Assembly: GCA_937625935.1 (NCBI GenBank)
Contig: OW569354.1
Coordinates: 496,001-560,000 of the forward strand
DNA length: 64,000 nt
Direction of reading: 5' to 3'
From: Tetramitus jugosus
Lineage: Eukaryota; Heterolobosea; Eutetramitea; Acrasida; Vahlkampfiidae
Under the pieces are notes generated by a model. The model was not told the DNA's origin. It was given only the letters and a program-made list of their open reading frames with translations, and ran no database searches. The translations under genes were made by a program, and so were the position numbers. This document shows, piece by piece, positions 10,815 to 51,406 of this stretch. Positions within the stretch are counted from its first letter, which is position 1. Every line of letters begins with the position of its first letter.

Positions 10815-11977
10815 TTTTTTTTTAAATACAACCATTTCGGTTGCTCTTTTTATTGTCTTGCTTATTCACTTGCCTACGCTCGAAGAGCGTAGGCCCTGGT
10901 TAGTTACCAGTTGGTAGGCAATGATTCTCGGAGAGCGTCATTGCCGTTGATTACATTTATCCTTCGTTGTAGTGAACAGGTGGTGGAGAGTCTTAAGACT
11001 TCTCCTCTTGACACTATTCACATATGTTTTGGCTTTCTTCTGTGCCAGTGGCTTCTTCATTCCTCCAGACATAAGACCCTCAGCGACCTCCATGATGGCG
11101 TCCGTTTCTATACCCATCATTCCTTGTAGCAGTTCACGGCTAGACTTTTTGATTGGTTGCCTCACAACCTTTCCTTCCTTCAGTCGCACCTCATCAAACC
11201 AAACATCGGCGTAGGCAGAGTCCGGGATTCCCATATTCTTGAGCTCATGCCCCGCTTTCACAGCCAATTGCCTTCTAATCATAATGGGACACCTGATCAA
11301 ACAATGTAGCACACTTTCGGGCTCACTCTGACACCAGCTGCACATGATCTGTTCCTCACCAGTGTTGTATAGATATCGTACAACTTCTGCTGTGTGGAGT
11401 GTTCCACTGCGTACCTGTGCATGAAACCATTCCAGCTTCCTGTCTATACCATGGGGGTATTTGAGGAAGCTAAAATCTGCACCACTGTTATTTGCTGCCC
11501 TCTGTAGCCAACATCGCTCGTCTTCATCAATTCTTGCACTTCTTTCTTGATCAAACAGCGACTGTAGATGCGATCTACTTTCCACATGCAGATTTCCTTT
11601 GCACAAGTCCGGTTCTGCACCTTCGATGGACCTCTTCCCTTCGCATCCACACCCACTCATTTGGGATATTAACACTTTCAGCACCTCAAACGACATTGCT
11701 CCGACCTTGCAGGAGGGAAAAATATGTTTAAATTCCTTCAGACACAGTGGGTGATCGTCCACCATTAGTTGCTCACAGCTTGTGATACCTGCCTTGTAGA
11801 GCTTCTTGAGAATTTCACTTGGTACATACCTGGCCAACCAACAACTATCACAGTAGGGATTAGTTTTGGTGACACGTATTTCATGTTTGTGCATTCTGCA
11901 TGCACACCACTTGAGGTAGGAGTGCTTGACAAATTCAAGCCTGTTTCTTGACTGGAATACATTCTCATTTTGGAATG
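10815..11977 (-). mobile_element. 5'-truncated non-LTR retrotransposon (LINE), ORF2 C-terminus plus 3' UTR
   Basis: Flanked by a perfect 16-bp target-site duplication, GCAAACAGATCGACTC, at 10799-10814 and 11978-11993. On the minus strand the element runs from 11977 to a poly(A) tail at 10815-10823. Its open frame (11977 to 10938) enters at the truncated end without its own ATG and encodes about 346 residues. A CCHC zinc knuckle (CSWCQSEPESVLHCLIRC) matches the one that follows reverse transcriptase/RNase H in many LINEs, so this is the C-terminal part of ORF2. The 3' UTR has a perfect GC-rich hairpin at 10874-10893 and then AATAAAAAG, CAACCGAAATGGTTG and the tail. The truncated 5' end lies 35-51 bp upstream of the 5S gene. 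The frame is intact, so insertion is fairly recent. Confidence 0.9.
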
Positions 11978-11997
11978 GCAAACAGATCGACTCGAAA

Positions 11998-12028
11998 GGC
12001 GGAAATAGGGCAATAATTTAAGTAAAGT
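11998..12028 (+). promoter_or_regulatory. Conserved 5S rRNA upstream element
   Basis: GGCGGAAATAGGGCAATAAT followed by TTAAGTAAAGT directly precedes the 5S start. Nearly the same block precedes the copies at 17580 (minus) and 34587, while flanks further out and 3' flanks differ. Conservation limited to about 30 bp suggests an external Pol III promoter element. Confidence 0.65.
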
Positions 12029-12148
12029 GTCTACGTTCATACAATGGTGGAACCACCTCTTCCCATTTCGAATAGAGAAGTTAAGCACCATCTGGCTGAG
12101 TTAGTATTGAGATAGGAGACTACTCGAGAACCCTCAGTAATGTAGGCT
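12029..12148 (+). rRNA. 5S ribosomal RNA
   Basis: 120 nt beginning GTCTACGTTCATAC and ending TGTAGGCT, then TTT for Pol III termination. The ends pair as helix I (GTCTACG with TGTAGGC). The internal control region AGAAGTTAAGCACCATCTGG and the TTAGTA..GAGATAGGAGAC part match the eukaryotic 5S pattern. ATGGTG pairs with CACCAT as helix II. Identity was recognised from these conserved blocks; the copy looks intact. Confidence 0.93.
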
Positions 12149-12484
12149 TTTACCTCTTAACTAACAAAGAAAGCTCCAACACAAATCACAGAAACAAGAC
12201 CCATGGATGACGGATTTTCTTATTTTCCGTGTAATCCAAATAGAGGCTAGCCATTCACAGACATCTATCCATTTGGTGTCAGTCCGCAGAGAAATCTCTT
12301 CAGCTGTCCAACATTCATGCCCCGTGTGGTAATTCTCTCCAAGTTGATTTGGACGTGTAACAGTAACACCAACGAATTTTTGTCTCCTGGGCGACTGAAA
12401 CGTGGTGTGACACCCACAAGAAAACAATCCCATCAACAGCTCGCTCTTCCATACTCAAACCAAAAGTGTCACTCTTTCGAAATT
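12149..12484. other. Region between 5S and the RGS-like gene
   Basis: The RGS-like reading frame stays open back to an ATG at 12317, but the added 56 residues are low in domain character. A minus-strand ORF (12161-12436, Cys- and Trp-rich) overlaps it and is not recognised. Nothing else is supported. Confidence 0.4.
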
Positions 12485-14398
12485 ATGCCACAATTAACCA
12501 AAGAGGAGATCTTTAAATTGTTCGAATTTGATTTCTTGAATGTGACTGAACATCCGGATTGCTTTCAATTATTCCTGGCACATGCAAAAACAGAGCTCAA
12601 CTCTGAAGCACTCTACCTGTACATTCATCTCGAACTCCTGTTGACAAGGACAGGCAAGCACGAGAACATTTATCGAAAGCTGGTCTCACTCACTGAGAGT
12701 CACAATGTCACGCGGGCACTTAAGTCTGAGCAAACAAGAACCCTGAATTTTCAATTGAAAAAGTGGAACGATTACAATCTTGACACTGAGCACAATAACT
12801 CGTATGTGAGTAACATGGCAACAAATGGTGATTTGTTATCTGATGCTCCATCGATGCAAACAATGACAACTGCAACAACAACGAATACGGCTGCTACTAC
12901 GATCGCATCCAATGTGTTTTCTCACCTCTTTTTCAGGAGAAGGTCCAGCTTGAGTGGTAAGGCACTAGGGAGTGATGCGACGTACGAAGATTTGAATCAA
13001 ACAGTTTTTGTGCGATTGGTTGACTTGTACGCCAAATGCAAGGCCTTACGAAAATTATTCTATGGAACGAACAGCAAGTATCAAGTCAATGTGAGTAATG
13101 CAGTGTTGAACAATGTGGAGGATAGCTGGAGGGAGTTTAAGGAAATGTATATGACTGTGATACCTCAATTGTTTACGAACAGGCAACAACAGGTGGAGAT
13201 GACGAAGAGGGATGAAGAGAGGTCAGAGAAACATAACAATCATGACGCTGATGATGACGAGTCATTGGCAAGTGAATTGGATAGGAGTGAGTGTGAGACA
13301 GAAGATGAATTGTACAATGATGAGGAGATGGACACCCTCGAGGGAGAAGAGAGACAAGCCGCTCGCAGTAATTTGGAGTCAATAATGAATAATGCAGAGA
13401 AGTTAGTCGAGTCCATGTTTGGTTCTTCTCGTCTCGTTCTCATGCTCACACTATCCTCTGATATCTTCCCTCGATTCAAGAGATCAAAGAATTGGATTCG
13501 ATTCATCAGTACTCGATCGCTGGACGAGCTCAAGAAGTTTGGTACGAGTAAATCCAGTCTTCAGATCGAACCGTTGTTACTCACACCTCATGATCTCACT
13601 AGGGCCACGATCAATGCCAAGGATGTGGAGTTGGCAAAGGTATTGCTGAGAGATTACTATCATTGGAAGCCGATCACGCAAAAGAAACTATCTGTTTACT
13701 ATTCGAATTTTAAGGTGATGACAGATGAGGCGATTGAACAGTGTGGTTTCTTGCATGCGTTTAGATTGACATACGAGTTTGACAAGAGTGCTCTAGATAT
13801 GGCTCGAATGTTCATTTCAAAAAAGTATTACACAGCGCTGTCCCATTGGAAAGATATGCAATCGATTAGTTATGTTCCCTTGCAGTACAAGGTTGATGAG
13901 GCAACCGGGAAGCGAACCATTGAAAATTATGGAACATCTATTCTCTATTATCGAAAGAGAATGATTGTCTTCAAGAGAGAGTTTATTCAAGCTCACACAC
14001 TGATTCACGATGAAGAAACAGGCACTTATCTCGATGTTTTCAAGGTTTGTGATCACATAAACGCACCTGAAAGCAAGAAGGGCTATAAACGAGCCCTTTC
14101 CTATGGTGTTGCAGCGTTCACAGAGATGGGAGACAAGTGTCGATACACTTCAGTCTTCATGGTCAACCTGAGAGGTCACCTGGAAACAAAATCAGAAAGT
14201 CCAACTCTTGTTGAGAGACAGTCCATAAAAGCACACACACGACAAGCTGTGAAGAACATGCAAAGTTTTGCGGACGAAGCAAGCTTGTCCAATTTTGAAT
14301 TGGATGATGATTTGAAAATTCTCAGGACCCTGCGGGAGCACCAGGAGTACAATAAGATGGAGAGAACATCAAGAAATATCTCACAGACACCGTCGTAG
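12485..14398 (+). CDS. RGS-like domain protein with C-terminal START-like region
   Basis: From the ATG at 12485 the product is 637 residues, no intron. The N-terminal part (LFEFDFLNVTEHPDCFQLFLAHAK.. EALYLYIHLELL) looks like the first half of an RGS box, and FVRLVDLYAKCKALRKLF with SWREFKEMYMTVIPQLF looks like its second half, split by a Thr-rich insert. RGS domains speed GTP hydrolysis by G-alpha. An acidic linker follows, and then about 250 residues (VLLRDYYHWKPITQKKL.. to ..VNLRGHLE) with the layout of a START/lipid-binding fold. The frame extends upstream to 12317; I chose 12485 because similarity starts there. Both domain names are tentative. Confidence 0.72.
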   Translation: MPQLTKEEIFKLFEFDFLNVTEHPDCFQLFLAHAKTELNSEALYLYIHLELLLTRTGKHENIYRKLVSLTESHNVTRALKSEQTRTLNFQLKKWNDYNLDTEHNNSYVSNMATNGDLLSDAPSMQTMTTATTTNTAATTIASNVFSHLFFRRRSSLSGKALGSDATYEDLNQTVFVRLVDLYAKCKALRKLFYGTNSKYQVNVSNAVLNNVEDSWREFKEMYMTVIPQLFTNRQQQVEMTKRDEERSEKHNNHDADDDESLASELDRSECETEDELYNDEEMDTLEGEERQAARSNLESIMNNAEKLVESMFGSSRLVLMLTLSSDIFPRFKRSKNWIRFISTRSLDELKKFGTSKSSLQIEPLLLTPHDLTRATINAKDVELAKVLLRDYYHWKPITQKKLSVYYSNFKVMTDEAIEQCGFLHAFRLTYEFDKSALDMARMFISKKYYTALSHWKDMQSISYVPLQYKVDEATGKRTIENYGTSILYYRKRMIVFKREFIQAHTLIHDEETGTYLDVFKVCDHINAPESKKGYKRALSYGVAAFTEMGDKCRYTSVFMVNLRGHLETKSESPTLVERQSIKAHTRQAVKNMQSFADEASLSNFELDDDLKILRTLREHQEYNKMERTSRNISQTPS

Positions 14399-14526
14399 AT
14401 GGATGAAGAATAAAGATATGATGAGTGACACTGAGATTCTGGTAAATCATACACTCCTTCATTTGGGAAAAAACAAGACGCGGTCAATTATTTGCAGGAA
14501 GCAACAAAAAAAGCGACAAGAAAGAA

Positions 14527-14670
14527 ATGATGGCTGACGCAAACATTTATGAGCTTGTCCTTCAGGTTGCAAGAGAATCCGATTGGACAAGTGCCAAAAC
14601 ACTCATCCTCCCCAACAGCGAGTATCATCAGATGAACTCAATGATGACCAGTCAATTTCACACTCAATAA
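14527..14670 (+). CDS. Possible 47-residue small ORF
   Basis: A short ORF starting MMADANIYELVLQVARES lies between the RGS-like gene and the 3' end of eEF2 on the other strand. The composition is protein-like and the ATG pair is preceded by an A-rich leader. It could be a small gene, or a leftover exon. No homology recognised. Confidence 0.25.
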   Translation: MMADANIYELVLQVARESDWTSAKTLILPNSEYHQMNSMMTSQFHTQ

Positions 14671-14713
14671 AACAAGCGTTTTTTGTTTCAAAGAGTACGC
14701 TTTATTGTTTCTC

Positions 14714-17194
14714 TTACAATTTGTCCAAGTACATCATCGCTGTAGGGATCTCAGGTTTGAGTCCTTTGCGAACACGGATTTCAGTTGCGATCTTATGTGC
14801 AATAGTGTCCTTCTCGTATGGATTCGAGTTCATTGTTCTCCAATGATCGAATGAACACTGAGGGAATGCTTGTCCAGATGTAGCAGCTCTCAATTCCTCT
14901 GTCAAACCAAAACTCTCAAGGACTGGAATATGACATATGACAGTGTACAACGTACCCACAGTTTGTTCTGTGGCCAATATCATTCCCTTTCTCTTATTCA
15001 CTACATTGTAAATTCCACCGAGAGCATTGTCAACAGTTTGGATTTCAACTTTGTACATTGGTTCAACTAATCGAGGTTGAGCTGAGAGTTGACTCGAGTA
15101 GTAGGCTTTTCTTGCTGCTGGTATCAATTGGCCACCACCTCTGTGAATAGCATCAGCATGCAGAACAGCGTCTATGACATTGAATCGTACTCCTCTCATA
15201 CTCTCCTCACAAAGACCACCTTCCTTTGAAGCCCATTGGAAACTTGAAACAACACTTTCTTTGATTTCGTTCATGAAGTCAGTGGACTTAGTACAATCCA
15301 CTACCACATTAGGTCCACAGTCAGCAGGTCCAAAACACCAAATCTTCTTTGCTGAGTTAGCATCCCAACCTTGGTAAGTGTCCACAATGTGTTTTGAAAG
15401 AGTCTTGGAATCCATTAGTGATGGGTTAAGAATGTTATTCTCCAAGTCAAGACTCATCTGCTCATCAATAGGAAGAGCTTGCATATAGAGTCTGTTGTGC
15501 TTGTTTGCAGATTTTGATAGGCAGATATCAGACATTTGAGTTACCGTTTCCTTGAAAGTGACCACTGGCTTTGATTTCAATAGTTTGATGCCTTTGCAGT
15601 ACTGATTCTCAAGATCTCCAAAACAAATATCCAGATGAAGTTCTCCAGCTCCAGCCATAATATGCTGACCTGTCTCTGATATCGTACATTGAAGCAGCGG
15701 ATCACTCTTGGTTAGTTTCTTCAGGCCTTCGACCAACTTGCCAATGTCAGAAGCCTTTTCTGTTTCTACAGCAATTTGAACGACAGGACTCACAGAGTAT
15801 TTCATATTCTTGAATGGGTGAGCGTCAGTGCATTCGAGATCAGTTACAGTACCAGTTTTGACGATCGCATTATCCAATCCCACCATACCAATACAGTTAC
15901 CGCATTGAGTTTCATCTACAGATCTAGTGACTCTTCCCATCATAACAAGAAGTCTTTGAACGCTTCCCTTGTAAACATCAGCTTTTGATTGTGTTGTTGC
16001 CTCATATTGAGGACCCATGATTCTTACTTTGTGACCCTGTTTAAGGGTGCCACTGAAGACTCTTCCAAATGCAACGAATTTACCTCCAGAACCTTCTGAA
16101 GGAACCATCTTTGAAACATAGACCATCAGAGGTCCATTTTCATCACAATCTCTAATTGCAGTAGCATACTTGTCATCTGTCGGGCCTGTATACAACAATG
16201 AATATCTGTACTTTTGGGCAGTTTTTGGTGAAGGTAATCGATCAACAATAAGTTCGATTAGAGCTTCGTGGGCTGGAAGAAACTTTTGCATTACATTTTT
16301 CATCAATTCCTTTGAAGTAGCTTCTCTTTCTTGAGTTGTCAGGCGAACATCCAGAGCCGACAACATTGAATCGAGTTGGATCAGATCATTGTCATTGACA
16401 ACTTTAAACAGATTGAAGATTGGTTCCAACACGAATTGACAGAAACCTCGTTTGAGAGTCTTCCCTGTCTTTTTGGAAATTCTATCTTTCTGCCACTTAT
16501 TCGAATCGGGACAGAAGAACCAATCACCCCAGAGTTTCTTCAGAACTTTGTCTTCAGCAATCTTGAATTTTGAAGCATACATCTTTGCGAATCTTCTCAG
16601 AGTGAATGCCCAACCCATTTTACCAGCTCCTATTGCAACATTGCCTTTCACAGGACTCACCTCGAAGCTATAACCAAGTGAGTGGTCAGTGTAGGTGGAG
16701 ATGATCACATTGACACTTTCGACAATTCTTAGAAGGTTCTGATAGCACTCCTCAGGATCTAATTGAAGTTCAACAATTGCACGATCAAGCTTGTTGATCA
16801 TTAACACTGGCACAATTCTTTCTTGGAGTGCCTGTCTTAGAACAGTTTCAGTCTGAGAACGACATCCCTCGACTGAGTCAACAACGACCATGGCTCCGTC
16901 AGTTACTCGAAGCGCGGCAGTCACTTCAGAAGAGAAATCAACATGACCAGGAGAATCAATGAGATTAATTAAGTACTCTTGTTCCTTGTACGGAAACATG
17001 AGAGAGATGGCTGTGGACTTGATCGTAATGCCCTTTTCGATCTCATCTGGACGAGTGTCCATGTACCTCTTGTTGCCAATGGCAGAGTGGGAGATGATAC
17101 CTGCAGCTCCAACGAGAGAATCAGTCAGGGTACTCTTGCCGTGATCCACATGGGCGATCACAGAAATATTTCGGATGTTTGTGCTTGATGTCAT
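14714..17194 (-). CDS. Elongation factor 2 (eEF2), somewhat divergent
   Basis: 826 residues, single exon. GTPase motifs are AHVDHGKST at 14-22, DSPGHVD near 80 and NKLD near 135. The tail contains IHRGGGQLIPAARKAYYSS and SGQAFPQCSFDHW, whose His in FDHW is the diphthamide site, so the protein should be modified normally. eEF2 translocates the ribosome after peptide transfer. Most eEF2s carry RFTDTR after the switch region; here it reads RYMDTR, so the Thr equivalent to human Thr56 (eEF2 kinase site) is Met. The length is close to the usual 840. Because of this divergence it could be a paralogue rather than the only eEF2. Confidence 0.93.
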   Translation of the reverse strand: MTSSTNIRNISVIAHVDHGKSTLTDSLVGAAGIISHSAIGNKRYMDTRPDEIEKGITIKSTAISLMFPYKEQEYLINLIDSPGHVDFSSEVTAALRVTDGAMVVVDSVEGCRSQTETVLRQALQERIVPVLMINKLDRAIVELQLDPEECYQNLLRIVESVNVIISTYTDHSLGYSFEVSPVKGNVAIGAGKMGWAFTLRRFAKMYASKFKIAEDKVLKKLWGDWFFCPDSNKWQKDRISKKTGKTLKRGFCQFVLEPIFNLFKVVNDNDLIQLDSMLSALDVRLTTQEREATSKELMKNVMQKFLPAHEALIELIVDRLPSPKTAQKYRYSLLYTGPTDDKYATAIRDCDENGPLMVYVSKMVPSEGSGGKFVAFGRVFSGTLKQGHKVRIMGPQYEATTQSKADVYKGSVQRLLVMMGRVTRSVDETQCGNCIGMVGLDNAIVKTGTVTDLECTDAHPFKNMKYSVSPVVQIAVETEKASDIGKLVEGLKKLTKSDPLLQCTISETGQHIMAGAGELHLDICFGDLENQYCKGIKLLKSKPVVTFKETVTQMSDICLSKSANKHNRLYMQALPIDEQMSLDLENNILNPSLMDSKTLSKHIVDTYQGWDANSAKKIWCFGPADCGPNVVVDCTKSTDFMNEIKESVVSSFQWASKEGGLCEESMRGVRFNVIDAVLHADAIHRGGGQLIPAARKAYYSSQLSAQPRLVEPMYKVEIQTVDNALGGIYNVVNKRKGMILATEQTVGTLYTVICHIPVLESFGLTEELRAATSGQAFPQCSFDHWRTMNSNPYEKDTIAHKIATEIRVRKGLKPEIPTAMMYLDKL

Positions 17195-17460
17195 GGTTCT
17201 ACTATCGGAAGGAGTGTTTTAGTCAGAGTATCTTTTAGATTCAGTTATGTTATTGTTTGTTCTTACTTTAACTCTGCTTTTCAAGATCCGCATTTTATAG
17301 CTGGTTAAGTCGGATTACTCCTACTGGTAGGTGCACATGGGAATTTGCACTCTCACCAAATATGGCAAATTATCTTCTGCAAGGGCGAAATTGCACTCAA
17401 CAGTGCAACGACAAAATTGCAGTCACACCAATCGGGGAAGCAAGAGAACACAAAACCAAA

Positions 17461-17580
17461 AGCCTACATTACTGAGGGTTCTCGAGTAGTCTCCTATCTC
17501 AATACTAACTCAGCCAGATGGTGCTTAACTTCTCTATTCGAAATGGGAAGAGGTGGTTCCACCATTGTATGAACGTAGAC
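17461..17580 (-). rRNA. 5S ribosomal RNA, second copy
   Basis: Reads on the minus strand from GTCTACG at 17580 to TGTAGGCT at 17461, 120 nt, followed by a T run. It appears essentially identical to the copy at 12029 over the whole gene, including the conserved block GCGGAAATAGGGCAATAATT immediately upstream (17581-17612). The 3' flank is unrelated to that of copy one, so this is a dispersed gene, not part of a tandem repeat. Confidence 0.93.
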
Positions 17581-17620
17581 ACTTTACTTGAATTATTGCC
17601 CTATTTCCGCCTTTTTCTGA

Positions 17621-18341
17621 GCGGAATCTGAATTTGGCCTTCACTGTCTTCCCAGAGCTCTGTTAAGAGTCGAAGATTGCTTGCAATGACAGTAGTAGAC
17701 GAGTTAGTGGAGCTAGGAGTGGCACGAAAGAGTTTTATCGACATCTGGTTTGACAATTTGCGACTGAGGGAAGGCAAATTGTCGCGAAGACCTATCAAGA
17801 AAACCAGCAAGAATATCTTCAAGGAATGATGGGCATCGAGGTAGATACCATCGAGCAGGTAACAGATAGATTGGTGCTTAACGGGATGAAGAAGTCAGTA
17901 GCCGCAAAGAAAGCCAAAACATTCGTGAACAGTGTGAAGCGGAGATGTCTCACAACCCTCCATCAACTGTTCACCTCAACCAAAGAGAAACAGAAGCAAT
18001 GACGAGCTGTATGTACCATTCTCAAGAAGCTCTACAAAGGTATCACAAACCGCGCGAAACTAATGGTTGACGATCACCCTCTGTGTCTAAAGGAGTTCGA
18101 ATACATCTTTCCGCCTGCAAGGTCGGAACAAGGTCGTTTATGGTGCTGAAGGTGTTAGTATCCCAGATGAGTGGGTGTGGATGTGCCGAAAGGAAAAAAG
18201 AGGTCAGTCGAAAGTGCAGAACCGAACGAGGGTAAGTTCGGGCGTCATTGCCTACCAACCGGTAACTAACCACGAAGAGCGTAGGCACGTGAAAGAGCAA
18301 GACAATAAAAAGAGCAACCGAAATGGTTGTATTTAAAAAAA
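17621..18341 (+). mobile_element. Degenerate, rearranged LINE fragment
   Basis: Related to the LINE at 10815-11977. The first segment encodes the ORF2 C-terminus (DIWFDNLRLREGKL.. and KKAKTFVNSVKRRCLTTLHQLF, ending at a stop near 18003) with a frameshift. A second segment encodes an earlier part (ILKKLYKG..LMVDDHPLCLKEFEYIF) and joins directly to the 3' UTR, ending AATAAAAAGAG, CAACCGAAATGGTTG and seven As. The two segments are in reversed order relative to copy one although in the same orientation. A decayed duplication may be AGCGGAATC (left) and AGCTGAATC (right). The 5' end lies about 41-48 bp upstream of the minus-strand 5S gene. Confidence 0.8.
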
Positions 18342-18402
18342 CAGAGCTGAATCATGACAGTGCTTCCATGAGCAGCGATTTATTTCACATTTACTTTCGT
18401 AT

Positions 18403-19259: not shown

Positions 19260-19429
19260 CCACATTTCATCATTCGATGATGGATCGCTCATTTTTGAAT
19301 GAGCTGTCTGAGAGTGCAGTGTGTGAGAAGCATCAATAGATTCTTCAACCACTGGTCGCTCGTTTGATGGTGGCAACAAAATCAGCCGCCGAGTGATTGG
19401 GACACAAGGGTGCAATAGAGTGGGCAGAT

Positions 19430-19700
19430 ACTCCTCATTCATCACATGGCTGACTCCACATGACAACATCAATCATGAAACATTCGGTACAGTCAATGTC
19501 TGATTCTTCTGTTTCTTCCTTGCCAAGAACGGTCGTGATGTTCATATCTACACAGCATACCATTTGAGGTAGGTGCAGTTGGCTCAAACATATTTGTTGG
19601 TTGGGAAATTCTCTCTCTTGTTGGAAAGCTATAAGTCCCATTAACCGTTCCATCTCAAAGGAGTAGAACAGGGTTGCGATTACCCAAATACCCCTTCAGC
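19430..19700. repeat. Duplicated spacer, partner at about 27660-27930
   Basis: Both places contain CACACAGCATAC(C/T)ATTTGAGGT, then TTGTTGGAAAGCTA and a following (C/T)CAACCGTTC/TTAACCGTTC and CAAAGGAGT in the same order, with scattered differences and indels. Short ORFs inside are not conserved between the two, so I treat this as non-coding or decayed spacer carried along with the RWP-RK duplications. Confidence 0.6.
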
Positions 19701-34586: not shown

Positions 34587-34700
34587 GTCTACGTTCATAC
34601 AATGGTGGATCTTCCCATTTCGAATAGAGAAGTTAAGCACCATCTGGCTGAGTTAGTATTGAGATAGGAGACTACTCGAGAACCCTCAGTAATGTAGGCT
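34587..34700 (+). rRNA. 5S ribosomal RNA, third copy, 6-nt deletion (probable pseudogene)
   Basis: 114 nt. Identical in layout to the other 5S copies except that six nucleotides (ACCACC) after AATGGTGGA are missing, between helix II and helix III. The upstream block GCGGAAATAGGGCAATAAT and the internal control region are retained, so it may still be transcribed, but the RNA would lack part of a universally present segment. No LINE is found upstream of this copy. Confidence 0.8.
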
Positions 34701-42255: not shown

Positions 42256-42337
42256 AAATTCAGACCACACAAACTTACCAATACCTGACCTATTTAATAT
42301 CTAATACACAGCTGCAAAACCAACTGACAAAACATCG

Positions 42338-42570: not shown

Positions 42571-43981
42571 ATGATTGCCAACAAACTTGTCAAGAGCAGT
42601 GCACAATCGTCACTGCGCAGCATGATCATCAACAACAACACTTGTGTACATACGCTGAATCGCATGATATTACCCTCATCCAACACTCTCTCACAACAAC
42701 AAACAAGAAATTATGCACCAAAACAACGAAGAATTAATTTGACAATGCAAAATCCGTTCGACATGTTGGAAGACTACAAGAAAAAGATGGCTACTATTGA
42801 GAGATTGGATGAGAACACACCAATTGGCAAAGTGATATACACTGATGATGTCCTGTTGCAGCGTAACATTGAAATTTATGAAAAGTTGAAAGCGAGTGGT
42901 GAAATACCTGGTATGTCGTGTTTGGTCAGACAAGATGCATTTTTGCACAACAACAACAACAAAAAAAATTTTCATTTTTTTCACATGGGATAAAACTCAC
43001 ACAACATTTTTTTTTTGCGTTATAGAGGAGGAACTGTTGGCAGAGGAGCCTCAAGTCCAGGAATATGTCGATTTTTTGAAAAAGACTGAACCAGGCCCAG
43101 GTGAGTACACTCACAGTAGCAAGCGAAGTGGTGTCATTGCAGTCAAGTGTGGCATGATCCCATTCTGGGACAAGTACATGAACAGAGTGTCTCTTACTGC
43201 TCTATGGGTGCCTGACTGTCAAGTCGTTCAAGCAAAAACCAATGAAAAGGAAGGTTACACTGCATTGCAATTGGGCGCAGGAAGCAGATCTGTCAAACAA
43301 ATCACAAAACCAATGTATGGACACTTTCAAGGTGCAGGTGTCGAGCCAAAGCAAGTACTCACTGAAGTCAAGGTGACTACGGATGCCATGTTGCCTGTTG
43401 GTTTCCGATTCGATGTCAGACATTTCCGCTTGGGTCAATTTGTGGATGTCACTGGTCGTACAAAAGGTAAGGGATTCCAGGGTCCAATGAAGAGATGGGG
43501 CTTTGCTGGTCAACCTGCCACTCATGGTGTCTCTGTGGTCCACAGATCTCACGGTTCAACGGGTAACAAGATTGGTAAGGTGTTCCCTGGTAAGAAGATG
43601 GCTGGTCACATGGGTTGCCAACAAAAGACTGTGTTGAACCTCTATGTTCACATGATGGACATTAAGAGAAATTTGATTTATGTGAGTGGAGCTGTGCCTG
43701 GATCAGAGGGAAGCTACGTTCTCCTTCAAGATGCAAGAAGAAAGAAGCCAAGTCTCACTAATCCACCACCATTCCCAAGTTACACCCCTGTTGAGGGAGA
43801 AGATGTTGCTTCATTGAGCGATTCAGAGGCCATTTTGGTTGCTGACGGTCAGAAGCCATTCGATTGGTCCGATTCAACCATGTCCTATGAACAAATCCAA
43901 GCCATGTTGGACGGTGAAGAAGTGAAGGTTGATAAGAAGCAAGACATCAAGACTTCCAACAAGGGTGGTGGTAGGAAGTAA
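42571..43981 (+). CDS. Mitochondrial large-subunit ribosomal protein uL3m, 2 exons
   Basis: Join 42571-42910 and 43026-43981 gives 431 residues; the 115-bp intron has a GTATGT donor and TTATAG acceptor. The first 50 residues are rich in Arg, Ser and Asn without acids, as in a mitochondrial presequence. The uL3 core is clear: GVIAVKCGMIPFWD, FRLGQFVDVTGRTKGKGFQGPMKRWGFAGQPATHGVSVVHRSHGS and GKKMAGHMGCQQKT. uL3 lies near the peptidyl transferase centre and starts large-subunit assembly. A C-terminal extension of about 90 acidic then Lys-rich residues is longer than bacterial L3. Confidence 0.93.
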
Positions 43982-43996
43982 TAAACACCAAAGATT

Positions 43997-45559
43997 TTAT
44001 GTTTGAATTTCCAGATTGACTGCACTATCGCTCGACAAGTTCAGTGATCCTTGTTGTGTCGTTGCTGTTCCATTGTAGAAACCTCGCACAATTTTCGGTT
44101 CATCCACTGTCCGGACGACACGGTCTTGCAACGAAGAAGACACCACCAAGGTGGCAGATGATTTAGACTCTAGAGTGAATTGGCCAGACCAATCGTCATC
44201 GTCCAACACCATGGAGATGGATCCGGAGCGAGAAGTCGATCGTATCGTTTGTGCGTTTCTGATCTGTTTATGCACCTGTTGTCCATAAACAGTCTCTGAA
44301 ATCAATTCACCTGAGCGAATCAAATTGACATCCTTGCCCGATACACTTGCACTTGATGAAGCTCGAATGACTAACCGAGGAGTTGATACGTGCTGATACT
44401 CTATCAATCCACTACCACTCTTTTCTCCACTGGTCAGAATCATCTCCTTCTCGCTCATTGAATTCTTGACTTTGATGCCTCTAGACGATGTCAAATAGGT
44501 ACCGTGCACCGTTGTTACAGAATCAACATCAACCAATCGATCACCAATCGCATTCAACACATTGAACCTCATATTGCCATTCTTGCTGTTGAATTTGATG
44601 GATCCAGAGGTTGTTTCAACCGTAATCGACACATCATTTGGCACTGAAATCAACATGCGAGAAGAGTAGCAATCCTCCTTGTTTTTCTGATCAATGGTTG
44701 TTTCAATCGTGTAAACCATTGGTTCATGAGATTGCAGTGCAGCAGCAATTACATTATCGCTATTGGATGTCCATGCACTGCGAATGTTTTTGAATCCAGT
44801 TGTTGATTTTGATTTTCGCGTTTCAGTAATCAACACATGATCACTTTGCATATTATTTCTCACAAATTCATATTCACCAAATCCATGAAATTTCAATGTC
44901 ACTGTATTCTGTTGTTGTTGCAGTTGTTGTTGCAATGGAATTTGCATGGATACAGTATCACCAAACTTGAAATCACTAGACTTTGTGCAGTGAGTCAATT
45001 TTTGATAACCACTCGCCACAATTTTAATGACCACAATCGGAACAACCAAACAACAACAACAGCACAATAGACACAACACGGTCAATATGATACCCGTATT
45101 CAAAAAACATGCATTGTCACCTGATTTTTTCAATGGTGGTGCTGTCGATTGATTATATTGTTGTTGTTGTTGTTGTTGCAACACAAATGGAGCTCTTCTA
45201 TTCTCATGATTCATAGTGTGGTTGTGATCATCAATGAGTGAAACGACTTGTTCTGCATGATGACTATTGTAGTTGTGTGCAGCAGCATCATCATCATCAT
45301 CATCATCATCATTGTAATCGTATGTTTCCATCATGATTGGAGTGGAAGATGGATTGTATTGATGATGATGAACAGATGATGATAATGATGATGGTAATGT
45401 TGTTGTTGTTGTTGTTATTGGATCATAGTGGTGAGAGTGAATGATGGGATAGGCTGTGTGACGGTTGATTGAGAGTACATTGGAACTAGTGGAGGGTGTG
45501 GGAGAAGAGGGAAAAGGACTTTCATACACGGGATCTTGTTCTTCTGCAATGTGATTCAT
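43997..45559 (-). CDS. Single-pass membrane protein with putative beta-rich outer domain
   Basis: 520 residues, single exon. The first 150 residues are low-complexity (Thr, Asp, His and Gln runs). One strong membrane helix at about 155-180 includes five consecutive Cys. The remaining 340 residues are Ser/Thr-rich beta strands: SVPNDVSITVETTSGSI, then TYLTSSRGIKV, and GELISETVYGQQV. This repetitive layout recalls DUF4097-type putative adhesin beta-helices. Probably at the cell surface or an endomembrane, with the N-terminus cytoplasmic. Function unknown. Confidence 0.7.
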   Translation of the reverse strand: MNHIAEEQDPVYESPFPSSPTPSTSSNVLSINRHTAYPIIHSHHYDPITTTTTTLPSSLSSSVHHHQYNPSSTPIMMETYDYNDDDDDDDDAAAHNYNSHHAEQVVSLIDDHNHTMNHENRRAPFVLQQQQQQQYNQSTAPPLKKSGDNACFLNTGIILTVLCLLCCCCCLVVPIVVIKIVASGYQKLTHCTKSSDFKFGDTVSMQIPLQQQLQQQQNTVTLKFHGFGEYEFVRNNMQSDHVLITETRKSKSTTGFKNIRSAWTSNSDNVIAAALQSHEPMVYTIETTIDQKNKEDCYSSRMLISVPNDVSITVETTSGSIKFNSKNGNMRFNVLNAIGDRLVDVDSVTTVHGTYLTSSRGIKVKNSMSEKEMILTSGEKSGSGLIEYQHVSTPRLVIRASSSASVSGKDVNLIRSGELISETVYGQQVHKQIRNAQTIRSTSRSGSISMVLDDDDWSGQFTLESKSSATLVVSSSLQDRVVRTVDEPKIVRGFYNGTATTQQGSLNLSSDSAVNLEIQT

Positions 45560-45973
45560 TGTAGTAGCTCAATGATGTTGTCTGGTCAGGTTTTTTTTGT
45601 GTTGAAAAGTTTGTCCTAGGAGTTTTTGATGATCGCTTCCAACACTGGATTTGAAGGCGGAATAATCGCGTTGTCTTAATCCAGAAAAAATCTAATCACA
45701 GCAGATGAGTGATTGAATTATATCTAGATTTCAAGACAATTTAAACCTTTTGAGTGATCAAAAGAAAAAACTGTTTCGGCAACAGATTCACGATACTTCA
45801 GTTATCACAAGGTTTTGGATCTTTTTTTGCCACCACAACGTTGTGTTTGGGTTGAATTTTTTTTCAAAGAACATTCATCCAAGGATTATTTGTGGCTCAG
45901 AGGAGAGCTTAGATATATTAAAAGTTATTTGGGTATGATACAACAATAAAACACATTGGACAACAAAATGAAG
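45560..45973. other. Intergenic region
   Basis: 414 bp, A/T-rich, without a supported gene. One short plus-strand ORF (45750-45938) has no coding signs. Confidence 0.5.
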
Positions 45974-46324
45974 CTACTCAATTGAAGGGTGAATATTCTC
46001 CAATGCAATGGCATTTTGTTTCGCATCGTCAATGATTTTTGGATCAAATTCATACATCACACTCATTCTTTCCAATGCACCCACTGTGAAAAACCTCAAA
46101 TTCTTCAATGGGAATAACTCTCTGATTTCATCTTGCATCTTGTCCCAACGTCTACTATTCATCCCTTTGCTCAATGTTATCAAGAAATGACTATCTGCTG
46201 TTATGAAAAATTGGTGACCAACAATTGGCCCAAACAATTGGCACCCACATGGAGGAATATTGTATCGATTCATAATTTCAAGGATTTGATCTTTGTGTTT
46301 TATGAGCTCATCCAGCGTTAGCAT
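45974..46324 (-). CDS. Hypothetical 116-residue protein
   Basis: Starts MLTLDELIKHKDQILEIM at the ATG of 46324; the frame is open a few codons further without ATG. Contains IPPCGCQLFGPIVGHQFFITADSHFLITLS and ALERMSVMYEFDP. No known domain recognised. May form one functional unit with the ORF at 46540-46923, but I found no in-frame splice joining them. Confidence 0.5.
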   Translation of the reverse strand: MLTLDELIKHKDQILEIMNRYNIPPCGCQLFGPIVGHQFFITADSHFLITLSKGMNSRRWDKMQDEIRELFPLKNLRFFTVGALERMSVMYEFDPKIIDDAKQNAIALENIHPSIE

Positions 46325-46539
46325 TGTTTCACTGACCAATAAAATGGTGAATTGAAGTTATTTGTTCGTTGCGCTGTTGCCCAAAAAAATTGATTGTTGG
46401 AGAGCAAATGTGAAAACAATAAAACATGTCATTCGATTTGATCTCACAAAGTTTTGTTTGGCATGTATTCACCATGAAATCAACCAACAAGTTGCTCAGA
46501 TACTCGTTACATCCAACATGCTTGCAATTTTATTGGCTC

Positions 46540-46923
46540 TCAACAGGTCAACACACACAAACCTGGTTGCAAATGTTCATTCACATGAATTGATTGCTGA
46601 TTGCATCTTTCCACTTGAATACAATCAATTAACAAAGATATTTGTTGAGGTGTTTGTTTGATCCTGTCCAGATGTTGGCCTCCTCTGCTCTTGATTGATT
46701 TTATGGATTGGAACCACACACTGAAATTTCTAAGTTGTTTAATGCAATCGTCTTTTCCTTCAACAATAAATACTGTATCATTCAAAATTGCATGCAGCAC
46801 CAGCATAATACTTTCAATCGAGCTCACGTCTGATGAGTATGCCTTCTTCACTTTTTCATACATTCTTGTTAGAATACCGAGCAATTTTTCTATTGTTATT
46901 GTAGTATTATTTCGAGTAGACAT
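46540..46923 (-). CDS. Hypothetical 127-residue protein
   Basis: Starts MSTRNNTTITIEKLLGILTRMYEKVKKAYSSDVS. Helical, no membrane segment. The last 20 residues (NEHLQPGLCVLTC) lack coding character, so the true end may involve a splice donor before them. No homology recognised. Confidence 0.45.
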   Translation of the reverse strand: MSTRNNTTITIEKLLGILTRMYEKVKKAYSSDVSSIESIMLVLHAILNDTVFIVEGKDDCIKQLRNFSVWFQSIKSIKSRGGQHLDRIKQTPQQISLLIDCIQVERCNQQSIHVNEHLQPGLCVLTC

Positions 46924-47124
46924 AATAACTCTTTATCACATTCGAAGAATATGGGAATGAAGAAAAAGTGTAAGATGTTTAAGAATTGGAGCTCGATAGA
47001 TTAGAATAACCTAAAATTTGAATGAATCCGAAGTTCATCAGACACTGGATCTTCAATACTTGCTGTCATTAGTGAGCAAACATGAGAAGAGTAACCTCAA
47101 TGGGAGAAACTTCAATAATACTGA

Positions 47125-47317
47125 GGGAGCGTCCAGATATTATTTCTTACGCCCCCCTAGGGAGGGGGTATGAGAAATTTATTCAAATAGTTATTCATAT
47201 CCCAATCCTAGTAGGAGAATTAATGTAACGTTCGAATTTACAGGAAAATGTGTTATTCAAATTTATTCAAAACAGGCAGGGAGGGGTCAGATGTGAACAT
47301 AATATCTGGACGCTCCC
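47125..47317. mobile_element. MITE, 193 bp
   Basis: Perfect 19-bp terminal inverted repeats GGGAGCGTCCAGATATTAT (47125-47143, and its complement at 47299-47317). The direct repeat TGA on each side (47122-47124 and 47318-47320) looks like a 3-bp target duplication. No ORF inside, so it is non-autonomous. A related copy lies at 53727-53931. Confidence 0.85.
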
Positions 47318-47329
47318 TGAGAAAGAGTG

Positions 47330-48058
47330 TTTAACATACAAAGTCATATATCAAAGTGGTCACCTTTTTCATCAACAATAAATAGTTTCATAGAATGCGA
47401 TTGTAAATTTGAATATTATCGATTGACCAATGAAAAATGGATACAAACACTTTAATCCATATAACATTAACAAAATAATCTAATAAAATATCACCAAAAC
47501 CCCTGGACAAACAAGATGAATTGCCAGGAAAGGGATGTAGACCATTATCTTCATCATCACCTATAGATATATAATTGGACCCAATTGCGAAGTCAGTAGT
47601 TTAATTTACGAATTAAAAAAGGAAATGTTAAGAAATGTTTCGTTGTTGTGGAAGCAGTTCGGAGGGGAAGCGTTTCATTGCTTGACCAGCATCCTTCCCA
47701 ATCTGTTCACCTTGAGTATCCATCCATCAGTCCAATCAGTGAACTCAGAGGAATATTTGAAATAGGGTGAATACATGTGTTCACTACTCATGCCACTTGG
47801 AAGATTGAACATCGATCAATGGATTACTGTCTTCAACCAACAATTTTAAAGTTGTAAGGATGAAAGAATAGCACATATCGAGGCAGATTCAACCCTCACT
47901 TCATGTTCATTCCCAGGAAGCCTCATCACTTTTTTAAAGGAATTAGGAGTGAAAACTGAGTTGACAAATTTTTTCACTCCAAATCCGGTGATGGCAAAAA
48001 TGATTTAATCTTTCCTCATCTCGTGTCTTTCGTACTGCAACAAACAACAATAATAATA
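47330..48058. other. Gene-poor A/T-rich region
   Basis: About 730 bp. No ORF with coding character, no RNA gene recognised. Confidence 0.5.
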
Positions 48059-48561
48059 ATGTCGAAAAATAAAATAAAAACAAGAGAGCTTCAACAACCC
48101 AATCATCTCAAGATTCAAAGAAGAAGAGAGGTCCTAATCATACAAATTTGGAATCAAAGAAATTTGGAACTTGATCTTCCAGAAAGAGAGGCCTCAGATT
48201 ACAAGAAAAAGATTTCCGATTCATTTTCTTTGTGGAGACGCGAATTATCGATTGGTCTTGATGATCTCGAATGTGGTGATGATGTTGTATTGATGATTAA
48301 CAATAAGGCCGTTGGTATTGCCTCTCTTAACTGGTTTGGTGTTGACTCCAACAGTATTACAAGTTTTGCAGTCATATTAACCAACTTGTTACTGGAATGT
48401 CTCTTGGTAATCCTGGAACCAAAAGGAGATGGCAGAGCTTGATATATCAAGAGGTTCTAAGGTCTGTCCAAGATGCTATCATCGAGATCAAAGGAGGTGT
48501 TAGCGAAAACGAAAAGATGGTGTTTGTTTCCCTTCCCCTGAAATGTATTCGTAGAAGGTGA
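48059..48561 (+). pseudogene. Small gene, either frameshifted or with one unusual intron
   Basis: The frame from ATG 48059 (MSKNKIKTRELQQPN) gives 127 residues to 48442, but from about 48340 onward the coding-like frame is another one (LVTGMSLGNPGTKRRWQSL.. to CIRRR stop at 48561). Removing 48310-48353 (GTTGGT..CAACAG) would join the frames, giving about 152 residues, but the donor is weak and the intron only 44 nt. A frameshift is equally possible. No family recognised. Confidence 0.4.
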
Positions 48562-48758
48562 TCCTGTCCTAAAATCGAATTTTGAATGATTTGGAACGAT
48601 TTACAACAAAAAACAACAAACAGAAAGAAAATCGCAACGCAACCTGATTATGATAGGGAAATATCTTCAATGGACAACGTAATACGTTAATTATTCCATA
48701 CGATGCCATGTCATGAACAAGTTTATTATGAGATAGACGACTTGTTTTCACTCGTAGC

Positions 48759-49106
48759 TTATAAGAATAAATTATAAGCAAATAGGTTTTCAATGACTGT
48801 TTTTAACGGATTTCTACCTTTTATTGAAAGCAATATCATCTGGATACAATTCTCTTTGGTATACATATACGGCAATACTACTTTCTTCCAGTAATAACCT
48901 TTGAATCCTTTATCTAGGGTATTATACTCATCAGAATCAAGATTCTCCCAAACGAAATTCTCTGGAAGTGCAACCAAGGGAGAGTCCGTCTTACTTCCAA
49001 TATACGTATCTGGTAAAGAATGTATAACCATTAGCACGAACACAAGTTTGGTAAATGTATAGTCACACTTCTTTCCAGAAGACAAACTCTTTTCAATTAA
49101 CTTCAC
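48759..49106 (-). CDS. Possible gene fragment lacking a start codon
   Basis: An ORF of 115 codons without a suitable ATG near its beginning (ALPENFVWENLDSDEYNTLDKGFKGYYWKK). It may be an internal exon or a remnant. No neighbour supports a longer gene. Confidence 0.25.
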   Translation of the reverse strand: MKLIEKSLSSGKKCDYTFTKLVFVLMVIHSLPDTYIGSKTDSPLVALPENFVWENLDSDEYNTLDKGFKGYYWKKVVLPYMYTKENCIQMILLSIKGRNPLKTVIENLFAYNLFL

Positions 49107-49485
49107 AATCTCTTACTAACAGGTTGTTCAACCCCTACTTTTATATGAATTTGTTTTTAATTAACTCCCAGACTCTTTAATACTCCGGGGAGGTAAACAG
49201 ACGACATTCTGCATATTCATCATACTTTCGTCTCTTACTGCTGGGGTGTGGTTTGAACCCGGGCCTTTTCGTTCATTATTGATTGTTTCATTTTGTTTGT
49301 TCTTTGAATTCATGAACTTCTGAACAGCATTACCATCACTGAATGAAGCTATTATCTCACATATATCCTTCCTATATAGATTGCAACGAGCTCCTTCAAC
49401 TTGGATATAACAAACTTTGCTGGGAGTGTAGCGTTAACCTCATTCTGATGAAATTCACACCGCGGAGGATCCAAGAAACAAAAGT
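49107..49485. other. Intergenic region 3' of tRNA-Ser
   Basis: A/T-rich. A lone T-arm-like stretch near 49249-49270 (TGGTTTGAACCCGGGCC) is noted but no complete tRNA folds around it. Confidence 0.4.
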
Positions 49486-49567
49486 CGCCCACTGTAGGAT
49501 TCGAACCTACGCGGGATGAACCCAACGCATTAGCAGTGCGCCGCCTTAACCACTCGGCCAAATGAGC
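49486..49567 (-). tRNA. tRNA-Ser (GCT anticodon)
   Basis: 82 nt, no intron. GCTCATT pairs with AGTGGGC in the acceptor stem (two G-T pairs), discriminator G. It starts TGGCCGAGTGGTTAAGGCG in the D region, has loop CTGCTAA with anticodon GCT, a long variable arm (TGGGTTCATCCCG region) and T-arm GTAGG-TTCGAAT-CCTAC. Its 5' end faces the nested LINE insertions, 30-57 bp away. Confidence 0.95.
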
Positions 49568-49623
49568 TTGATATTTCGTTACATGGTAGATATACCAAAA
49601 CTGCTATTTTGAACTGAGGTTGC

Positions 49624-51010
49624 AACGCCGATGAAAAAACGAACACACACCCCTGTTGTTCGCGAGTATGAGAATCCACGCTATGCTGTGTGGACCACAG
49701 CACCAAGAGGAACTGCTCCAAGCAGCAAGGAGGTCATCATCACTGGAAAGTGTGATGACTCTCCCAAGGCTGCCTTGGCCAAGAAGATTGGCTTGGATTT
49801 TGGTGATTTGCTCACCAGGGTCCAAGTCATCAAGAAGGGCCCCAAGAGGTTTGTTGCGTGGGTAACTGTTGTTGATGACAACATTTACCCATTTGTTGAA
49901 TCCTTCAACCGCAACAAGAAGATGAGTGGCTGCAAGGCAGCACTCAAGCACAACGTAGATTGTGCCAAGAAGGTCGTCCTCCACGGAGTTAAAGGTAAGA
50001 CTGAGGACGACATCAAGGCCATGCTTGGCACAACAAAGGTCAAGAACGTGCTCAAGAAGCACGACACCTCCTTTGTTGTGATGGAGTCCGAAACGTATGC
50101 CGAAGCTTTGCTTCGGAACGTTCAATCCATGCCAGTGGAGGTGGAAGCAAAACGCTTCCTTCCACGCCCACGTGATCCGGTCAAGGCTGTCAGCAAGAGG
50201 CTGACCAAGATGTACCAAGAGCTCCTGGCTGTGGTGGACGACCTGCGCCACCAAGTCAGTGTGTTAAAAGATATGGCTTCCGTCAACCGGATTCCCCTCG
50301 CATCCCCGTCTCCAAGGACGCCGGAGCGAATCTCCGAATTCGAACCTTCGACTCCGTCTACGACCGATGACTGGGAGTCGATCTTGCCGGAGTCCCATCC
50401 CGCCACTCCAACTACGGTCACCCAAGAGCCAACCAACAACACCATTGATGAGGATGCTCGTAACAGAGCAATCCTCGAGCTAGTATTGAACACCTCCGAG
50501 GTGTTCAAGAAAGTCAAGAAAGAGATTGCTGCCCGAGCAATCATGGTGGACCGTGCAAGAAGCACAACCACCGAAGAAGATCCAGTTGAGTTGGATCTCA
50601 GTAACCCTGACTGTGAGTTACAGAGTCCCCAACTCAACGAACACAAGAAGCGATCAGCACGTGTCACCGTTGGTGACACTGCTGCCAACAAGATCCCGGC
50701 CAGGTTGGCCAGTATCAAGTCAGGTGCTCTCCGTAGGTCCTACCAACTGGCTAGGACTACGGAGCCATCTGATCTCACCAGTGGTGCTCCAGATGGTAGT
50801 GGAGGCCCTCGCAACGAATCCCTGAAGAAGGGATCAAAACAACATTCCAAGAAGAGAATGAATCCTGTTGCGTAGGCCTGCCACTCCACTGGGCAAGCAC
50901 CACATCATGTTAGACAATTGAGAGCAGGCAAGCCTGCTCTCACGCAAAAGAAAAATAAAAGTTCCGCAACGTGGTGCGTGAGCACCATTTGTTGTATTAA
51001 AAAAAAAAAA
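49624..51010 (+). mobile_element. Poly(A) retroelement carrying only an ORF1-type gene (half-LINE-like)
   Basis: Flanked by a perfect 15-bp duplication TTGAACTGAGGTTGC (49609-49623 and 51011-51025). Contains one intact ORF (49631-50875), a 120-bp 3' UTR with hairpin GAGCAGGC-AA-GCCTGCTC, then AATAAAAGTTCCGCAAC, a loop, TTGTTGTATT and 12 As. No reverse transcriptase. G+C is clearly higher than in the neighbourhood. It sits inside another LINE fragment, 42-56 bp upstream of tRNA-Ser. It may be a true non-autonomous element or a 5'-truncated, ORF2-deleted one. Confidence 0.85.
49631..50875 (+). CDS. LINE ORF1-like RNA-binding protein
   Basis: 414 residues. The region 85-160 (RFVAWVTVVDDN.., VVLHGVKGKTEDDIKAMLG.., TSFVVMESETYAEALL) has the beta-alpha-beta order and RNP-like strands of an RRM. 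A heptad-like helix (LTKMYQELLAVVDDLRHQVSVLKDM) follows, then a Pro/Thr/Ser-rich linker and a basic C-terminus (SLKKGSKQHSKKRMN). RRM plus coiled coil is the plan of ORF1 proteins that coat LINE RNA. The first seven nucleotides of the element precede the ATG, so some N-terminus may be lost. RRM identification is by pattern, not by search. Confidence 0.7.
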   Translation: MKKRTHTPVVREYENPRYAVWTTAPRGTAPSSKEVIITGKCDDSPKAALAKKIGLDFGDLLTRVQVIKKGPKRFVAWVTVVDDNIYPFVESFNRNKKMSGCKAALKHNVDCAKKVVLHGVKGKTEDDIKAMLGTTKVKNVLKKHDTSFVVMESETYAEALLRNVQSMPVEVEAKRFLPRPRDPVKAVSKRLTKMYQELLAVVDDLRHQVSVLKDMASVNRIPLASPSPRTPERISEFEPSTPSTTDDWESILPESHPATPTTVTQEPTNNTIDEDARNRAILELVLNTSEVFKKVKKEIAARAIMVDRARSTTTEEDPVELDLSNPDCELQSPQLNEHKKRSARVTVGDTAANKIPARLASIKSGALRRSYQLARTTEPSDLTSGAPDGSGGPRNESLKKGSKQHSKKRMNPVA

Positions 51011-51025
51011 TTGAACTGAGGTTGC

Positions 51026-51391
51026 CTGATTCTGCCAAAATTGTACTCTGGTTTGACGGTGCGATATATGAAAAGGGCAAGATTATGCCACGAAATGTCA
51101 AGCGATCACCAGAAGGACTGTTGGAGGGACTAATGGGCAAAGAGGGAGGTTTTAGGAAAGAGCTACTGGACTCAATGATGCTCTCCGGCAGGAAACAAAA
51201 GGAGGCAGAGAAAGTAATAAGAGGTATGGTGGACTCCATGAAGAGGGCCTGTCAAAGCACTTCACAAGGTATATATTAACTCCGTCGTGAAGAGGAGTGA
51301 AACACTGCTCAGCACCTGACGGTGCTGAGCGGAATCATGACTCTGCAGCGGTGTATTGAATAAAGAGGCAACAATTGTTGTATGGAAAAAA
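51026..51391 (+). mobile_element. 5'-truncated LINE fragment, outer element of the nest
   Basis: Encodes PDSAKIVLWFDGAIYEKGKI..EGLLEGLMG, the same ORF2 C-terminal region as PDSAYADVWFDEVRLKEGKV in the element at 10815-11977, to a stop near 51280. The 3' UTR has hairpin GCTCAGCACC-TGAC-GGTGCTGAGC, then AATAAAGAGG, CAACAATTGTTG, TATGG and a poly(A) run. Its own 15-bp duplication AAAACTGCTATTTTG is at 49597-49611 and 51392-51406. The ORF1 element later entered 12 bp from its 5' end. It inserted 30-44 bp upstream of tRNA-Ser. Confidence 0.85.
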
Positions 51392-51406
51392 AAAACTGCT
51401 ATTTTG

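Follow-up and report, generated by a model that had tools for sequence, protein, structure and literature searches.

We describe here a clan of retroelements of the LINE type (long interspersed nuclear elements), with companions that keep only the first open reading frame (ORF1), found just upstream of RNA polymerase III (Pol III) genes. The elements were followed from a 64-kb window (the whole stretch of DNA analyzed, bases 496001-560000 of contig C11) to the complete assembly of 26.35 Mb in 56 contigs. Read from the assembled letters, the site of insertion, the side of the gene, the orientation, the target-site duplication and the reuse of the position are established. We consider it probable that the clan is directed to Pol III genes, integrating at a fixed distance by target-primed reverse transcription while docked through ORF1 on the initiation factor TFIIIB.

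Insertion sites in the window and across the genome

The window contains six Pol III genes, three tRNA and three 5S genes with one 5S gene diverged, and 5S genes are dispersed in this genome, across which at least 47 were scored. Four insertions just upstream of 5S and tRNA-Ser genes had been predicted from the window; all four were recovered, each with the element's 5' end facing the gene. The features concerned are the following.

10799..10814, duplication of insertion 1, copy farther from the gene
10815..11977, minus strand, element A, a 5'-truncated LINE (ORF2 C-terminus, 3' hairpin, poly(A) at 10815)
10938..11981, open frame of element A, 347 aa
11978..11993, duplication of insertion 1, 16-bp copy nearer the gene, at 36 bp from the 5S gene
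12029..12148, plus strand, 5S rRNA gene, target of insertion 1 (100.4 bits)
17461..17580, minus strand, 5S rRNA gene, target of insertion 2
17617..17631 and 18342..18357, imperfect duplication of insertion 2 (by eye)
about 17632..18341, plus strand, insertion 2, composite old 5'-truncated LINE fragment with 3' tail
34587..34700, plus strand, diverged 5S-like gene (73.8 bits)
49486..49567, minus strand, tRNA-Ser(GCT) gene, target of insertions 3 and 4
49600..49611 and 51395..51406, outer duplication, from the insertion of element C (by eye)
49609..49623 and 51011..51025, inner duplication, from the insertion of element B
49624..51010, plus strand, element B, complete ORF1-only (non-autonomous) element with 3' hairpin and poly(A)
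49631..50875, ORF1 of element B, 414 aa
51011..51394, plus strand, element C, older truncated LINE end with similarity to the ORF2 C-terminus

The near edge of element A lies 36 bp from the 5S gene at 12029, as originally measured, and its two 16-bp duplication copies match perfectly. At the 5S gene ending at 17580 a distance of 41-48 bp had been proposed and has to be corrected, as the imperfect duplication begins 37 bp from the gene. For the nested pair placed at 30 and 42 bp from the tRNA-Ser gene the inner distance stands, with a duplication that is perfect over 15 bp and begins at 42 bp, and the outer one becomes about 31-33 bp when flanking A residues are allowed for; B and C landed at similar distances. 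In all, two of the window's duplications are perfect (15-16 bp), one is short and one imperfect. The first 12 bases of element C occur also at 49612-49623. Element B is nested in these first bases and therefore arrived later. The 5' ends facing the genes had all been described as truncated; the orientation is right, but element B is complete, since 25 of its 29 other copies start at the same base, three start one base later and one eleven bases later. No insertion was detected at the window's tRNA-Ala, tRNA-Phe or diverged 5S-like gene. The last retains the upstream box of other 5S genes (GCGGAAATAGGGCAATAAT) and is perhaps a pseudogene.

For a genome-wide census we assembled three sets, 79 copies in all, selecting them by similarity and without regard to position. 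Sets 1 and 2 are the best-scoring copies of element B (30 of 64 matches) and of element A (30 of 49 matches; these 30 loci are 29 copies because L018 and L023 are one copy). Set 3 comprises the 22 of 53 ORF2 matches that start at residue 12 or earlier. The copies on C45 and at C20:472380 fall in both set 2 and set 3, and five gene-proximal elements within stacks were kept outside the 79. Out of the 79 copies, 51 lie directly upstream of a tRNA or 5S gene, 21 are stacked behind another element and seven are neither (six with 5' ends unread or unrecognisable, and L064, which was read and has no gene). All 51 direct copies are divergent, the 5' end of the element facing the 5' end of the gene, and six of them are at 5S genes (L009, L013, L019, L028, L034 and L063). 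At the window's density of six Pol III genes in 64 kb, the chance that the 100 bp upstream of a random site of given orientation include the start of a divergent Pol III gene is about 0.5% (6 x 100 / 128000), and about 0.4 of the 79 copies would therefore be expected to be direct, against the 51 observed. The expectation that copies elsewhere would neither lie far from Pol III genes nor be randomly oriented was thus borne out. No upstream Pol III gene in the element's own orientation was seen in the flanks read.

In set 1, analyzed with 1.5-kb flanks, 19 of the 30 B copies have the start of a tRNA (18) or 5S (1) gene 41-66 bp from the element's 5' end, all divergent. Ten copies (L044, L046, L052, L054, L055, L056, L060, L061, L066 and L068) adjoin the 3' tail of another element, and in all 30 the 1.5 kb beyond the 3' end are free of Pol III genes. 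The 29 A copies of set 2 comprise 19 direct, five stacked and five other copies, and the 22 ORF2 copies of set 3 comprise 15 direct and six stacked copies and one that was unread (C22).

Set 2, direct: L009, L010, L011, L012, L013, L015, L016, L017, L019, L020, L022, L024, L028, L029, L031, L034, L035, L036, L038
Set 2, stacked: L018/L023, L021, L027, L032, L037
Set 2, 5' end placed neither direct nor stacked: L014, L025, L026, L030, L033
Set 3, direct: C45, C20 (two), C34 (two), C37, C10, C27, C29, C35, C47, C39, C16, C18, C23
Set 3, stacked: C25, C42, C4, C38, and two on C12 behind the B copies L052 and L054

Four of the 51 direct placements are weaker. The copies on C18 and C23 were placed by spacing only, the distance between a tRNA gene and the first codon of ORF2 being 1335 and 1317 bp (the spacing is 1335-1336 bp in the two C34 copies that were read), and L038 was placed from a 10-bp duplication only. 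The full-length C16 copy, where no tRNA had been found at first, has a flank with homology to the one at a tRNA-Trp gene (L057) and holds a degenerate tRNA-Trp there, which scores 94 against L057; 200 shuffles of the C16 stretch scored against the other tRNA-Trp (L024) reach at most 29, and L024's own score for this stretch, 29, equals the shuffle maximum. L011 and L031 were placed through their 5' ends as seen in L070 and L072, L013 was placed from coordinates (5S at 118723, ORF2 match from 118773), and the C12 copy behind L054 was placed from ORF1 spacing. The tRNA targeted on C35 carries an intron, and the C38 copy is joined to another element's 3' part that lacks its poly(A). Pol III genes also occur on the 3' side of three A copies: L034 sits between two head-to-head 5S genes, one of which faces its 3' side at 193 bp, a tRNA-Leu follows the 3' end of L028 after about 1 kb, and L025 has a tRNA-Thr downstream (ARAGORN, introns allowed). 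Rfam searches of 17 loci, a sample including L083 and L093 and omitting some gene-less loci, gave no match up to an expect value (E) of 0.1.

The reverse test started from the genes. Out of 53 nuclear tRNA genes (63 predictions less 10 on C54 and C56, which look mitochondrial), nine have a divergent element within 1.6 kb upstream, none has one upstream on the same strand and one has an element downstream; for 47 5S genes the corresponding numbers are four, one and two. One of the same-strand and downstream 5S cases is likely the head-to-head pair on C7. These counts are lower bounds because the gene and element lists are incomplete. The last three element B matches and three ORF2 matches were omitted from this test. 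Outside the 79 copies, five of the eight 5S loci L001-L008 have LINE pieces upstream. At L006/L007 (one pair) and at L034, two 5S genes stand head to head about 0.75-1 kb from each other and enclose LINE pieces.

We searched 33 direct copies for duplications. The duplication starts at a median of 40 bp before the mature tRNA (standard deviation 3.7, range 31-46, n=18) and 27-37 bp before 5S genes (n=4), and the edge of the element lies at a median of 57 bp from the gene (range 29-77, n=28). Duplications are 15-19 bp long in 16 of 22 cases. In the accepted model of target-primed reverse transcription the first nick corresponds to the duplication edge nearer the gene. At this nick there is only a weak step, with T at -2 and A at +2 in 13 of 22 cases each, a pyrimidine before it in 16 of 22 and a purine after it in 15 of 22; the sites have no strong target sequence. 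The upstream flanks of 54 tRNA genes called by ARAGORN, one of them plainly spurious and many of them occupied by an element, show an A+T-rich block at about -29 to -24. In five stacks a duplication of 16-19 bp belongs to the gene-proximal element itself and begins 28-41 bp before the tRNA, and in three of the five the duplication of the older B copy would have begun 30-41 bp from the gene until the newer element came in (by eye). The Pol III gene is thus a reused dock, at which later insertions take the same position.

Autonomous LINEs and ORF1-only companions

Element A comes from an autonomous LINE, of which it is the 3' end. Its 347-aa frame gave no Pfam match; it shares 97% identity with the C-terminus of ORF2 in a full-length relative on C45 (L070) and contains a CX2CX8HX4C motif, spotted by eye, which we take to be zinc-knuckle-like. 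The C45 copy has its 5' start about 50 bp from a gene resembling a tRNA, left unnamed by ARAGORN and read by us as an intron-bearing tRNA-Thr; the copy's ORF1 is spread over two frames and is followed by ORF2, with a frame change late in ORF2. The reverse transcriptase (RT) of ORF2 matches RVT_1 of Pfam (E 2.6e-26) and is of the non-LTR type (LTR, long terminal repeat). In the PDB, ORF2 matches human L1 ORF2p (E 9.9e-18), from residue 87 within the endonuclease part, and R2 chains. By eye, the motifs QEAT, GGDHN, SRID and SDH are presumably those of an apurinic endonuclease (APE)-like domain, and no RNase H was matched within the 918 ORF2 residues scanned. The copies end in poly(A), are truncated to variable extents at their 5' ends and are flanked by target-site duplications, as LINEs are. 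The genome search listed 53 ORF2 matches, of which the near-full-length ones are 47-100% identical and nine lie in stop-free open frames of 1267-1318 codons. Database searching gave one close relative only, an unnamed protein of 682 aa (59% identity over 74% of the query), and no Dictyostelium protein was among the 69 database matches. An RT tree draws the family as a long branch close to a group containing Xenopus TX1 (support 81/34), a position that would fit a distant resemblance of the autonomous elements to L1/Tx1. In L069, an open frame at about 1982-2707 in reverse orientation presumably encodes an RT of the DIRS/Ngaro type.

Element B is 1.39 kb long and encodes ORF1 only, and the 30 copies cut out of the genome are 93-100% identical to it. 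It resembles the HAL1-type half-LINEs, which keep ORF1 and the LINE 3' end without ORF2; we know of no Pol III targeting by those elements. A second ORF1-only kind (type X, 382-388 aa) is about 49% identical to the B ORF1, and the ORF1 of the autonomous C45 copy, at about 38% identity, belongs to the same family as B and X, so that the genome has at least three ORF1 types. Among 14 intact B copies we counted 77 synonymous and 53 non-synonymous distinct changes, a ratio of non-synonymous to synonymous polymorphism (pN/pS) of 0.21, and 38 and 11, respectively, among the changes common to at least two copies (pN/pS 0.09). By these ratios the ORF1 of element B is under purifying selection, which maintains the protein.

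At the 3' end, autonomous and ORF1-only elements share AATAAA, a GCAAC/GTTGT-closed hairpin and poly(A). Out of 42 distinct 3' ends, 34 fold from the first GCAA, seven at a later GCAAC and one has no fold; only the extended stems are informative here, because the pattern used to find the ends already contains both sides of the stem. In one locus (L022) a B 5' part is joined to an A 3' part 57 bp from a tRNA-Glu. This chimera, which spans about 963-2141 in element orientation, fits a single enzyme working on both RNAs with a template jump.

Proposed mechanism and its alternatives

In the mechanism that we propose, autonomous LINEs with an APE-like endonuclease and an RT would integrate by target-primed reverse transcription upstream of Pol III genes and would probably mobilise the ORF1-only companions. 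The integration complex would dock on a Pol III initiation factor at the gene, most likely TFIIIB by analogy with the TRE5-A element of Dictyostelium discoideum. ORF1 would be the docking part, and the ORF2 of the autonomous elements would nick the DNA and make the cDNA for both kinds of element. That element B retains ORF1 without ORF2 fits a targeting role of ORF1, as in TRE5-A.2.

Several observations weigh against this mechanism. A degraded LINE remnant at 47660-47799 (minus strand), in a part of the window originally described as free of LINEs, has no adjoining tRNA or 5S gene that we could find; it is about 83% identical to element A over 70 bp and matches ORF2 residues 840-875 at 53%. 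The B copy L064 has neither a recognisable Pol III gene nor an element upstream, weak tRNA-like matches being uncounted. No clean duplication was obtained for 11 of the 33 direct copies searched, and edges of 29, 68 and 77 bp exist (L015, L016 and L029). The endonuclease domain scores below the Pfam cut-off (Exo_endo_phos, E 0.015), the L022 chimera could come from recombination instead, and both the docking partner and the role of ORF1 are drawn from analogy.

Instead of TFIIIB the partner might also be Pol III itself, TFIIIC or the open chromatin of Pol III genes, which we regard as unlikely though deserving of attention. These are likewise common to all Pol III genes, and Ty1 of yeast uses Pol III subunits (PMC5911963, PMC5006619). 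However, Ty1 insertions spread over several hundred bp, whereas the duplication starts found here have a standard deviation of about 4 bp, as for a fixed upstream partner, and the precise elements Ty3 and TRE5-A contact TFIIIB (PMC5006619). We find it very improbable that the elements encode a sequence-specific endonuclease cutting a motif that happens to precede Pol III genes. The weak pyrimidine-purine step at the nick and a GGAAATAG-like box common to the 5S upstream flanks would suit such an enzyme, but the flanks of many tRNA isoacceptors are unlike each other, those of 5S and tRNA genes differ, and the second insertion at the window's tRNA-Ser gene cut element sequence instead of the original flank at the same distance; this candidate was rejected. 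Random insertion with survival only beside Pol III genes, for which the purging of harmful insertions from gene-dense genomes can be invoked (an argument of PMC5006619), or segmental duplication of tRNA-plus-element units is scarcely credible and was rejected too, as survival leaves unexplained the few-bp spread, the single orientation and the 0/30 on the 3' side, and copies 98-99% identical adjoin different tRNA genes with different duplications, which excludes duplication of units for those copies.

Relation to known systems

The comparison with TRE5 made at the outset proved apt in distance, orientation and the ORF1-only companion (PMC5391098, PMC5911963). TRE5-A.1 and TRE5-A.2 of D. discoideum are L1-type elements that insert about 40-54 bp upstream of tRNA genes; they combine an element having two ORFs with APE and RT with an ORF1-only partner mobilised in trans, their 5' end is toward the 5' end of the gene, and 5S genes are hit at a slightly shorter distance (PMC5391098, PMC5911963). 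The elements described here are alike in these respects, with an endonuclease that is putatively APE-like and a partner that is probably mobilised in trans. TRE5-A integrates 47 +/- 3 bp upstream of tRNA genes in the same orientation, and at 5S genes at 35-42 bp, shorter than at tRNA genes (PMC5391098); the original suggestion that 5S targeting was new must therefore be withdrawn. The ORF1 protein of TRE5-A contacts TFIIIB subunits in vitro, and its integration needs the B box (PMC5006619, PMC5391098, PMC5911963). Unlike in TRE5-A, the duplication starts at about 40 bp here, against 47 +/- 3 bp, and at least three ORF1 types are present. The likeness, judged against published descriptions of TRE5, is one of behaviour: the distance upstream of tRNA genes and the 5' end facing the gene (51/51).

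We do not file the elements as TRE5 because the host, by its COX1 gene, is not a dictyostelid. Among the 120 COX1 matches listed (contig C54), the two that bear a species name are heterolobosean (Pleurostomum flabellatum 68%, Acrasis kona 65%), the best match of all being an environmental sequence (87%). The host is thus probably a heterolobosean or a close relative of that group. C54 and C56 have identical tRNA and COX1 coordinates and are therefore probably one mitochondrial genome assembled twice, whose COX1 reads in the standard code. An EF2-like gene at 14714-17194 of the window (minus strand) has no close named relative among the 120 matches listed (best named relative 57% identity, an environmental protein 71%), and no dictyostelid is named among them.

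Further systems resemble the present one in part. NLTR-B of Polysphondylium pallidum is a non-LTR element found 39-64 bp upstream of tRNA genes (PMC5911963, PMC5006619). NeSL-1_TV, LIN15_SM and LIN25_SM of the NeSL group are also tRNA-specific non-LTR elements, each with a restriction-like endonuclease and a single tRNA species as target (PMC4640811), whereas the elements described here have APE-like endonuclease motifs and many tRNA species plus 5S genes as targets. Ty3 of yeast is likewise precise upstream of Pol III genes, via TFIIIB (PMC5006619), but it is an LTR element with an integrase that inserts 1-4 bp from the start site.

Dictyostelids thus already provide examples of LINEs inserted upstream of tRNA genes (TRE5, NLTR-B), of 5S targets and of an ORF1-only partner. 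As far as our searches go, what is new is the same targeting in a genome that is probably heterolobosean and that combines natural 5S insertions with at least three ORF1 types; no report of Pol III-directed LINEs in Heterolobosea appeared in listings from the open-licence PMC library, subscription papers being mostly outside the search. TRE targeting has been called unique to dictyostelids, its origin being left open (PMC5006619). By analogy, we lean towards the view that LINEs in Discoba independently evolved docking on the Pol III initiation complex, with an ORF1 adaptor that is also carried by ORF1-only satellites, at least three ORF1 types using one landing pad, and serial docks recording the order of insertion. 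The alternative, that TRE5-like targeting predates the split of Amoebozoa and Discoba, would be equally novel. The stacks are a natural record of insertion order, and since near-full-length ORF2 copies are 47-100% identical the targeting rule can be traced over time. Because distance, orientation and ORF1-only partner recur in a second, distant lineage, one can ask whether this targeting is convergent or ancient, and which part is the adaptor.

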